From a virus: a DNA stretch of 38,995 nucleotides. A model generated the notes under the pieces. It had not been told where the DNA came from and searched no databases. It worked only from the letters and a program-made list of their open reading frames with translations. The stretch spans positions 1 to 38,995 of the IMG/VR virus record IMGVR_UViG_3300010371_000023; one strand, 5' to 3'. A program made the translations under genes and the position numbers. Positions 11,596 to 32,005 of the stretch are shown one piece after another (within the stretch, counting starts at the first letter, position 1; every line of letters starts with the position of its first letter).

Positions 11596-11880
11596 ATGAG
11601 ACCATTAGGTAATCGAATATTAGTCAAAAGAATAGTTCCAGAAGCAAAGAAAGGCACCGTCTTGCTTATATCATCTGAAGAAAAGGTAAAGACTGGAATC
11701 GTGATTGAAATAGGACCAGGAAAGCCTGATAGAGATGGGTTTCCTATGAATATGAATGTATATAAAGACGATAGGATAATATTCCCGATGTATTCAGGAA
11801 CACCCGTCATCGTGGATGATACAAATGACGAGTATTTGATTATTTCCGCTGATGAAATTCTTGCTGTTTTGGAAGATTAA
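11596..11880 (+). CDS. GroES-like co-chaperonin
   Basis: A 94-residue protein, close to the usual 95-100 of GroES. It has the N-terminal RPLGNRILVKR strand, a segment at residues about 16-33 equivalent to the mobile loop with hydrophobic GTVLLI for GroEL contact, the GIVIEIGPGK turn, YKDDRIIFPMYSG (the GDIVIF strand of GroES) and the closing LIISADEILAVLE. AAGGA precedes the start. GroES caps GroEL. Phage versions such as T4 gp31 replace the host cap so that the capsid protein can fold. Here it probably helps fold the major capsid protein or another large virion protein (inference). Confidence 0.9.
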   Translation: MRPLGNRILVKRIVPEAKKGTVLLISSEEKVKTGIVIEIGPGKPDRDGFPMNMNVYKDDRIIFPMYSGTPVIVDDTNDEYLIISADEILAVLED

Positions 11881-13034
11881 CCATTTGTCCGATCTCGGAT
11901 AAGATTATTATATTTTTGAACCCTAAAATATATTAATTGCCAAGAACAACCTAATTTCTTTGCTATTTGATTCATATTCATACCGTTTTCCAATAAATTC
12001 TTTATATCATCATCAGAAACATTCTTATTCCTATTTTGCTTTATATCTTCCTTTCTTAAATTAACTCCACTTTTAATTAATTGGTATCTTAAAACATCTT
12101 GTTGTATTCCTGTTATTTTATATATTTCCGTTTGTGTTTTTCCTGAATTATATAAATCAATGATATTTTCTAGTAAACTAGGATCTCTTAAAAACATATG
12201 TTTAGTAAACTTAGATTCAAATGCTTTTTCAACAGATTGAAATCTTGTTAACTTTTTTCTTAGCATTTCAGGATTGACATCCAAAATCTTGGACCACATC
12301 GAAATTGAATGCGTTTCACCTTTATAAGTAACCTGAAAGCCATTTTTTAAACCAATATCAGTTCTGAATTGACTTTCTGAAATCATATAACAATTACCCG
12401 GATTAAATTCTTTACATCCATCTTTCAAACAAATGACATCTCCTTCTTGCCAGCCATTCTCAATAGCCCATTCATACATGTCCTTAGCGCCATTTCTCCA
12501 TAAATCGCAAACCGTAATTCCAATTCCTCCAAATTTAGGATAACTCACATTTTTTTCATTATAACATTTATGAATGAGAGCCGTTTTCATTGCATAAAAA
12601 CGACTCCCAGACAATAAATGCTTAGGAGGATACAAAGTTGTATTAATATGTTTAGATTTCATTTTTCTTCCCAAACATCCACAACTTTGTGATTTTCCTT
12701 GTCTTCCAAGACAATAAGATGAAACCAAACCTTCATTTCCACAATCACATTTGCAATGCCATTGTGTTTTATTAAAATTATCAAATTGTCTTTTTAAGAC
12801 AGTCCAACGACCAAATTTTCTACCAATTAAATCGATACCTCTTTTTCTTTCAAATACGCATTCCTTACATTCAAATTTATCTCCTCTATTTCTAAAATTT
12901 GCCGACCAGCAAGTAAAATTTTTTCCACAATCGCATTTGCATTTCCAATAAGTACCTCCAGATCTTATTTCGATTAGCTCTAAAACATTTACTCTGCCAA
13001 TTTTCCTTCCAGCATAATCAATAAATTTCGGCAT
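11877..13034 (-). CDS. HNH-like (homing-type) endonuclease with tandem zinc modules and HTH repeats
   Basis: A 385-residue protein. Two tandem N-terminal modules (residues about 9-62 and 70-123) share G(R/I)KxGRxxVL, WxCKCDCG and a later Cys pair (CKEC; CGC), as in zinc-binding repeats that precede phage HNH nucleases. Residues about 140-225 match the associated HNH-type domain (YPKFGGIGITVCDLW, then NPGNCYMIS), but the usual LDRID segment is replaced by CLKDG, so catalysis is uncertain. Residues about 235-280 resemble a modular DNA-binding motif, and two helix-turn-helix segments follow (about 297-330 and 350-380). The ATG overlaps the annealase stop (TAATG) with GGAAGG upstream, so it is the coupled last gene of the leftward operon. 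Confidence 0.75.
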   Translation of the reverse strand: MPKFIDYAGRKIGRVNVLELIEIRSGGTYWKCKCDCGKNFTCWSANFRNRGDKFECKECVFERKRGIDLIGRKFGRWTVLKRQFDNFNKTQWHCKCDCGNEGLVSSYCLGRQGKSQSCGCLGRKMKSKHINTTLYPPKHLLSGSRFYAMKTALIHKCYNEKNVSYPKFGGIGITVCDLWRNGAKDMYEWAIENGWQEGDVICLKDGCKEFNPGNCYMISESQFRTDIGLKNGFQVTYKGETHSISMWSKILDVNPEMLRKKLTRFQSVEKAFESKFTKHMFLRDPSLLENIIDLYNSGKTQTEIYKITGIQQDVLRYQLIKSGVNLRKEDIKQNRNKNVSDDDIKNLLENGMNMNQIAKKLGCSWQLIYFRVQKYNNLIRDRTNG

Positions 13035-30841: not shown

Positions 30842-32005
30842 ATGACTATTACAACAAGTAACGCATTGCCACCTCCAGTACAGCAATGGTTCGACAACGT
30901 GCTTTTAAGCCGTCCGATGCCAAAACTGATTCACAAACAGATGGCGATGAAGAAAGAGCTTCCACCTAATAGTGGACGCATTGCTAGATATCGTAGATAT
31001 ACGAACCTACAAACTGCAACGGTTCCACTTCCAGATTCAGGACTTACACCTCCTGGTCAAGTACTTAATGCCGTTGATATTGATGCTAGAATAGACTTTT
31101 ACGGAACATATGTCACAATTACAGATTCCGTAATGTTTATCAATCAAGACCCTGTTCTTAACCAGACTGTGAGCTTACTTGCTCAGTCTATGAGAGAAAC
31201 AGAAGACGAGCTAATTAGAAACATGTTGGCATCTACAGCCTCTGTAATTAACTGTACAGGTGGTACAAATGGAGACAACCCAACAGAACTAGCTCGTAGC
31301 GATATTGATGCGACGATTTTAGCATTGCTCGGAAACGATGCGATGATGATTTCTGACAATATCGAAGGCTCTTTGAAATTTGGTACAGCGCCTAAAAAGA
31401 ATGGGCGCTTAAAATCTTCTCTGATTGACTTGGAAATCCGACAGGATGACAGGGCGCAAGCTTTATTAGCAGCGTGAACGACTAAGTGAGAAGACCTTGT
31501 AAGAGGATGCGATAGTCTGAACACTACGAATAAATAAAGGTAGTGAGGTTGATCCGAAGAGGTTGACCCGCCTAAGAGATCTTAGGTCATAAAAGTAACA
31601 GAAATGGTTCGAGAAGCGTTTTGGGGTATGATGAATACAGGTATTCTTGATGATCTTGAAGCTGTTACAGGCTTTATTTCACAAGCTCAGTATCCATCTA
31701 ACATGAACACTTTGAATGCCGAATGGGGTTCAGTAAGTAATATCAGGTTCTTGTATAGCTCTAAAGGTTCTACATCCCCAGCATCATCTTTAAATGGTAA
31801 CACTGTTTACAACATATTTGTAACAGGCCAAGAAGCATATGCAATGATTGACCTTACACAAGCCACAGCAAGCTTTATTTATACCCCTCCTGGTGGACCT
31901 ACCGATCCACTTCGCAGGTTGCAGCTAGGTGCATGGAAAATGGCGCAAGTACCTCGTTTATTGAATGATGCATGGCTCTTCAATCTACGTGCTACGCACT
32001 CATAA
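30842..32005 (+). CDS. major capsid protein, N4-gp56 family, split by a group I intron (exons 30842-31393 and 31607-32005)
   Basis: Exon 1 (184 codons) begins with TNALPPPVQQWFDN and contains GVTPP-like SGLTPPGQ, NQDPVLN and EDELIRNMLASTAS, characteristic of N4-gp56-type HK97-fold capsid proteins. Exon 2 encodes VREAFWGMM ... QAQYPS ... AEWGSVSNIRFLYSS and the C-terminal WLFNLRATHS. Joining CCT at 31391-31393 to GTT at 31607 gives KFGTAPVREAF, the conserved family junction, and a 316-residue protein of normal size. Unspliced, translation stops at 31475, giving 211 residues and losing half the fold. The start has AGAGG about 9 bases upstream. Confidence 0.88.
31394..31606 (+). ncRNA. group I intron in the capsid gene (213 nt, no ORF)
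   Basis: The predicted 5' splice site follows U31393. P1: exon GCGCCU (31388-31393) pairs with GGGCGC (31403-31408), with U.G at the splice site, extended by an A-U pair. P10: GAAU (31399-31402), adjacent to P1, pairs with exon-2 GUUC (31607-31610). P7: GACUA (31480-31484) with UAGUC (31513-31517). P9: CACTAC (31522-31527) with GTAGTG (31540-31545). A further hairpin is CCTAAG/CTTAGG (31571-31576/31581-31586). The intron ends in G31606 (omega-G). The core resembles phage introns such as T4 td. P3-P6 were not resolved by eye. Confidence 0.85.

Follow-up and report, generated by a model that had tools for sequence, protein, structure and literature searches.

A putative ssrA-like degron in the read-through tail of a group I intron in a viral major capsid gene

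The rarity of group I introns in bacterial protein-coding genes is attributed in part to coupled translation, which interferes with splicing and yields protein fragments; fragments of capsid protein can act as assembly poisons. Most group I introns close the reading frame at the junction, according to a review (PMC3073962). Introns in phage capsid genes are themselves already known: the major capsid gene of mycobacteriophage LittleE contains a group I intron, with splicing demonstrated by RT-PCR (Pope et al. 2013, PMC3706429). For the Jug phages, metatranscriptomes back splicing for 37 of 76 predicted introns (PMC12363816). At the protein level, the E. coli ssrA tag is AANDENYALAA, and its terminal Ala-Ala is the most important element for ClpXP (PMC7652416).

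The locus considered here lies in a window of 38,995 nucleotides, the whole stretch of the IMG/VR virus record IMGVR_UViG_3300010371_000023 that was analysed. A preliminary description of this DNA found the location of an intron in a capsid gene striking. The location stands, but since the introns of LittleE (PMC3706429) and of phage Tuc2009 are known, a capsid-gene intron as such is not new; what we propose as new is a function for the peptide encoded at its beginning.

The interrupted capsid gene and its intron

The capsid gene has terminase and portal genes upstream, a gene order in keeping with its identity. Its ORF starts at 30842, runs past 31393 (after GCGCCU) out of conserved sequence and into an insert, and is closed by an in-frame UGA at 31475-31477; conserved capsid sequence picks up again, in frame, at 31607. 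Each half matches its own stretch of the PHROG 1357 (major head protein) profile, and the two stretches, 22-182 and 211-341 of 356, are adjacent.

30842..31393, + strand: exon 1 of the major capsid gene, 184 codons ending ...KFGTAP (PHROG 1357, E=2.9e-17; collinear with intact alleles)
31394..31606, + strand: group I intron of 213 nt without a homing-endonuclease ORF (missing from alleles 91-93% identical; covariation)
31607..32005, + strand: exon 2 of the major capsid gene, starting VREAFWG... (PHROG 1357, E=1.5e-10)

Joining 31393 to 31607 gives a protein of 316 amino acids that aligns without gaps to intact alleles 91-93% identical to it. At the DNA level the joined sequence equals that of empty sites base for base, substitutions aside, with the empty sites continuous through the junction. 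The preliminary description had inferred the split and the restored 316-residue protein from the sequence alone, and both are borne out, as is the comparison with intronless alleles that it proposed: the insert is exactly missing from relatives with collinear DNA. Among 60 related viral contigs, the capsid gene is intact in about 40 and interrupted in about 15, the remainder being cut by contig ends. A repeat scan of capsid homologues for interrupted alleles covered only the best-scoring genes, all of which are intact, and adds nothing to this comparison. A sequence search of the PDB with the capsid protein found no relative, and the AlphaFold model of the protein is of too low quality for use (mean pLDDT 53).

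The intron ends in AUG (31604-31606), in frame with exon 2, and because of this AUG gene finders call exon 2 as an ORF of its own starting MVREAF. Internal initiation at the 31604 AUG from unspliced mRNA is conceivable.

The elements of the intron RNA, all on the + strand, are the following; those from P3 to P9.2 rest on the covariation alignment.

31387..31393: 5' strand of P1, AGCGCCU, on the exon side with U at the splice site; pairs with 31403-31409
31399..31402: P10 guide GAAU; pairs with GUUC of exon 2 (31607-31610)
31403..31409: 3' strand of P1 and internal guide, GGGCGCU; 7 bp with AGCGCCU
31415..31421: 5' strand of P3, UCUUCUC; pairs with 31488-31494, paired in 100% of 45 sequences, two-sided changes in 7/7 pairs
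31429..31432: 5' strand of P4, CUUG; pairs with 31450-31453
31436..31439: 5' strand of P5, AUCC; pairs with 31444-31447
31455..31457: 5' strand of P6, CGC; pairs with 31472-31474
31460-31461 with 31469-31470: P6a
31478..31484: 5' strand of P7, A(c)GACUA with a bulged C; pairs with UAGUCU at 31513-31518, 100% paired
31488..31494: 3' strand of P3, GAGAAGA (45-sequence alignment)
31495..31506: P8 hairpin, CCUUGUAAGAGG
31523..31544: P9 hairpin; two-sided changes in 5/5 pairs
31547..31586: P9.1 and P9.2 hairpins; 71-77% of cells paired
31606..31606: omega-G, the final intron base, from the sequence; exon 2 in frame from 31607

These elements include the hallmarks of a group I intron, namely a pseudoknotted P3-P7 core with P4-P6 and P8 and, in P7, a guanosine-binding site with a bulged nucleotide; in the window the 5' splice site is marked by the U.G pair in P1 and the 3' end by omega-G. 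P1 with its U.G pair, P10 (GAAU/GUUC), P7, P9 and omega-G are all present in the form in which they were first described, and the P3-P6 and P8 pairings, which had not been listed, are present as well.

Relatives were gathered with two DNA patterns from the intron core, and 45 of them were aligned for covariation. Across these, 93.4% of the cells of the canonical structure pair, 37 of 50 pairs show two-sided changes, and the covariation score is 0.489; none of 500 shuffles comes up to the observed level, and the score drops to at most 0.092 when partners are slid. In P3, P6, P7 and P8, 98-100% of cells are paired, and the outer pair of P7 beside the bulge covaries (A-U, G-C, U-A). The P1 of relatives was partly chosen by its pairing, which does not apply to the other helices, and the U.G pair served to place their splice sites, so that it provides no independent evidence there.

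The Rfam model RF00028 (Intron_gpI) does not match the insert, neither by gathering score nor by the E-value thresholds used. The absence of such a match combined with the absence of a P3-P6 core had been named as grounds for refutation; the first is observed, but a complete P3-P8 core is present. We regard the Rfam model as insensitive here, because T4 nrdB and td likewise fall below the cut-off, which one other T4 intron and three from Twort exceed. A family covariance model of the core matches the insert at 118 bits (the insert itself being among the sequences of the model) and also picks up introns in isolates and in further capsid genes that are interrupted; its sole Twort candidate is weak (E=0.34) and lies inside a known group I intron. 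Folding of the single sequence, also suggested as a check, lends only weak support, the intron being mildly better than shuffles (z -2.7). Taken together, the anatomy, the covariation and the intronless alleles support the view that 31394-31606 is a group I intron splitting the major capsid gene, whereas the splicing of this copy is inferred.

The intron family and its open reading frame

The family set comprises 114 unique introns, for which the 5' splice site was placed by P1 and the frame by the upstream ORF; the search patterns make no demand on the host gene. Of the 114 introns, all with a clear upstream ORF, 86 lie in a homologue of this capsid protein (E<1e-6), spread over about 38 aligned positions, a figure that is approximate, some homologues being distant. 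Further hosts are capsid genes of PHROG 9953, 283 and 267 and genes for portal, tape-measure and ribonucleotide-reductase proteins. In 28 of 86 cases an intron and its nearest intron relative occupy the same site, where shuffling gives 4.4; we therefore conclude that the introns are passed on at a given site and also spread to other ones. The site of the window, GTAP^VREA, is seen nowhere else in the family set, and the closest intron relatives sit at other sites. Measured to the 3' GUAACA motif, family members span 183-244 nt, one truncated case excepted, and the 213 nt of the present intron, once thought to be near the minimum for a self-splicing group I ribozyme, are ordinary.

Several further observations concern these inserts and their possible mobility. 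Two or three group I introns occur per capsid gene in L160, L164, L171, L188, L237, L068, L077, L097 and L051, the last with one core-less insert and two full introns. Inserts of 56-59 nt follow FYG in the capsid gene of L037 (2943-3000), L038 (1129-1184) and L051 (487-545); they have a P1 of 7-8 bp with U.G, a 4-bp P10 and omega-G but no catalytic core, and some 48 nt downstream of each insert there is a complete intron core. Their P10 co-varies with a synonymous Thr codon of exon 2 (ACU-AAGU, ACC-AGGU, ACA-AUGU), and their in-frame tails read ...LLKAA, LLAA or LLIAA. They may be core-less mini-introns that are spliced by the neighbouring intron. Capsid introns of L038 (about 1300-1790) and L059 (about 2350-2830) seem, by eye, to hold an antisense LAGLIDADG-like ORF, comparable to what is reported for LittleE. 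An HNH endonuclease ORF at 11877-13034 on the - strand of the window (PHROG 374, E=3.6e-45) is possibly a free-standing homing nuclease; as a homing partner in trans it was rejected, with distant relatives (about 27-45% identity) in some other loci and nothing that links it to the intron. Family introns are also present in L237, L239 and L241, whose contigs were assigned to Parachlamydia or Chlamydiia MAGs, either as a true host or through mis-binning.

The first description called the intron ORF-less, which is correct for a homing-endonuclease ORF but not for the exon-1 frame, which remains open for 27 intron codons and ends ...AQALLAA-stop.

31394..31477, + strand: predicted read-through extension of exon 1, KKNGRLKSSLIDLEIRQDDRAQALLAA followed by a UGA stop (ORF translation; frame and tail statistics of the family)
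31457..31474, + strand: proposed C-terminal degron QALLAA, overlapping P6 (family tails; comparison with ssrA, PMC7652416)

The openness of the frame is a property of the family. Introns inserted in phase 0 mostly have P1 loops of 9, 12, 15 or 18 nt, those in phase 2 mostly loops of 7, 10 or 13 and those in phase 1 mostly loops of 8 or 11, so that the insertion phase is offset by loop length and the reading frame is kept. This holds for 94 of 114 introns, where 57 are expected and the maximum among 20,000 permutations is 74 (0/20,000 reach the observed value); for 38 of 45 cluster representatives, against 19.9 expected; and for 27 of 35 introns when only phases 1 and 2 are considered.

Of 113 read-throughs among the 114 introns, 63 end in Ala-Ala and 78 in Ala; with one representative per 85% cluster, the corresponding counts are 23 and 30 of 45. 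The tail counts are not independent, because the introns are related. Of the 63 Ala-Ala tails, 44 have L, I or M at residue -3. The tail of the window, ALLAA*, fits the description of ssrA-like ends, which consist of a terminal Ala-Ala with, as a rule, a hydrophobic residue before it. Among ORFs of at least 150 amino acids in the same loci (n=1134), 62 end in Ala-Ala, and those listed with a preceding hydrophobic residue are mostly these intron read-throughs. The other two frames end in Ala-Ala 0 times and once; they provide no neutral null, because the conserved CUCUGAUUGA motif places UGA in both, and we rejected this comparison as sole evidence in favour of the phase/loop permutations and the codon variation.

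The tail is located in P5, in P6 or in the P1 loop, depending on the intron. Tails in the P1 loop are KFG^KQENALAA* in L047, whose capsid gene is 93% identical, FALAA* in L107 and YFLLAA* in L244, the last being the end of a deposited GenBank 'P22 coat protein' fragment (MW202674). The region 2193-3708 of L244 (MW202674.1) is annotated with two 'P22 coat protein' CDS and a spurious hypothetical protein between them, and looks like one gene into which an intron of the present family has been inserted. The final Ala is missing in the portal-gene introns, in three out of the four capsid introns of PHROG 9953 and in roughly one fifth of those in PHROG 1357 capsid genes. The ribonucleotide-reductase introns of the family (L063, L111, L243) have a stop at or near the junction and no Ala-Ala tail.

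Among the tails that lie in P5, 44 are distinct; in these, the third positions of the Ala codons show all four bases and all three stop codons are used; only third positions are informative there, because positions 1 and 2 are fixed by the selection of the set. On account of the synonymous variation, the three stop codons and the phase compensation, the criterion for selection of the degron tail at the protein level appears to be met in these sequence comparisons, with the relatedness of the introns not fully removed.

Degron, RNA structure or the timing of splicing

The simplest interpretation, which we consider probable, is that the read-through tail is a cis-encoded, ssrA-like degron for the capsid fragments that unspliced mRNA would yield. 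In bacteria the capsid mRNA is translated during transcription, so that some ribosomes should arrive at the junction before splicing. Finding the exon-1 frame open, they would pass P1, P3 and P4 and meet a stop codon in P5-P6 (within the P1 loop in some introns) immediately after an Ala-Ala tail, here AQALLAA, that would mimic the tmRNA (ssrA) tag. The truncated protein could then be sent to ClpXP-type proteases, sparing capsid assembly from poisoning. The intron anatomy and covariation, the maintenance of the frame, the Ala-Ala enrichment and the synonymous variation are observed. Translation into the intron, proteolysis by ClpXP-type enzymes and the avoidance of a dominant-negative product are inferred, like the splicing of this copy, without RNA or protein data and for an unknown host.

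The main rival to the degron is RNA structure: this could be a plain group I intron in which Ala-Ala-stop is a by-product of P6/J6-7, or of a GNRA-capped P5 or P2 hairpin that spells GCN-GCN-UAA. In the subclass of the window the GCAGCGUGA string does belong to the conserved core at P6/J6-7, and because the last GCA GCG UGA coincides with this element, RNA structure may supply the Ala-Ala there and leave only the frame free; in several P5-class introns, as well as in LittleE and the mycobacteriophage BAKA, hairpins of the form CUGC-GUAA-GCAG likewise spell Ala-Ala-stop. However, introns with AUAA, UUAA, AUGA, AUAG or CUGA loops retain Ala-Ala-stop without a GUAA loop, the P1-loop tags of L047, L107 and L244 require no such hairpin, and the coupling of phase to P1-loop length holds exactly this frame, of which folding alone has no need. 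The P1-loop tags, the loop variants and the phase compensation argue against RNA structure as the whole explanation, which we judge unlikely without dismissing it.

An open frame could also serve the timing or chaperoning of splicing: a ribosome that reads as far as the P5-P6 stop would delay folding or mask the exon, and the amino acids would be irrelevant. Translation of the upstream exon does affect the splicing of a T4 intron, and in-frame stops have been viewed as ribosome barriers (PMC3984707, PMC3073962), but such a role predicts fixed stop positions and not fixed final residues, whereas the stop ranges from the junction to P6 and Ala-Ala recurs with different codons. Moreover, reviews describe stops immediately past the junction, the opposite of what this family has, and we give the timing of splicing little credence as an account of the tail. 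That the insert is translated or bypassed (as an in-frame insertion, an intein or a hop) instead of being spliced is scarcely credible, for although the exon-1 frame is open for 27 codons, there is the in-frame UGA at 31475, P1, P10 and omega-G accompany a covarying core, and intact alleles lack exactly the insert.

Returning to the degron, we think it likely, with a little less assurance than for this intron alone, that introns in the virion genes of phages carry a protein-level quality control, in which a cis-encoded ssrA-like degron destroys the truncated product made before splicing. Such degrons would have arisen at different places in introns and in unrelated lineages, and would help introns persist at dozens of sites where fragments are dangerous. 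The family appears to turn an unavoidable translation into a disposal signal, the opposite of closing the frame at once. If true, this helps to explain the survival of an intron in a very highly expressed gene, it means that a selfish RNA repays its host phage at the protein level, and it offers a signature, an open exon frame with an Ala-Ala-stop end, for finding introns that covariance models miss.

Comparison with known systems

A search of the open-access literature brought up no paper that connects group I introns to ssrA, ClpXP or degrons in the sense meant here; it did not extend to subscription papers or most preprints. As far as could be found, the intron-encoded read-through degron is new.

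The nearest counterpart is the intron of LittleE. Like the intron of the window it interrupts the capsid gene, and in our own reading its read-through ends in an Ala tail, ...WNSVATAAA*, on which the available portion of PMC3706429 makes no remark. It differs in its length of 819 bp, its antisense homing endonuclease and its phage group. The intron in a tail gene of BAKA, with splicing proven by RT-PCR, reads through to ...LSDDLAAAAA*. The introns of LittleE and BAKA belong to another lineage and, as an outside test on introns with demonstrated splicing, speak for the importance of the tail; they were examined after the hypothesis had been formed and share intron sequence with each other. Mycobacteriophage genomes are Ala-rich.

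Other phage introns resemble the present one in RNA or in host gene but not in the tail. The intron of lactococcal phage Tuc2009 also splits a capsid gene, but it holds an HNH ORF and has a stop right past the junction, without an Ala-Ala tail. T4 td, nrdB and nrdD and the Twort introns are likewise group I introns of phages, and P7/P9-type strings, e.g. AUAGUCUGAAC, recur in Twort; in these introns, hosted by nucleotide-metabolism genes and one Twort virion gene, the exon frame is closed at the junction or within a few codons of it, and there is no Ala-Ala tail. The group I introns of the Jug phages are similar in size (about 206 nt on average), and most homing nucleases stand alone there; they lie in terL, nrdD and other genes, and no read-through tag is reported in the part of the source that was available (PMC12363816).

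With tmRNA, the proposed tail shares the marking of incomplete proteins by a C-terminal Ala-Ala that is read by ClpXP (PMC7652416). The tail differs from the ssrA tag in that it is encoded by an intron in cis, serves one protein, ends at a normal stop codon and involves no ribosome rescue. We regard the intron as a variant of the group I intron for which a new function is proposed.
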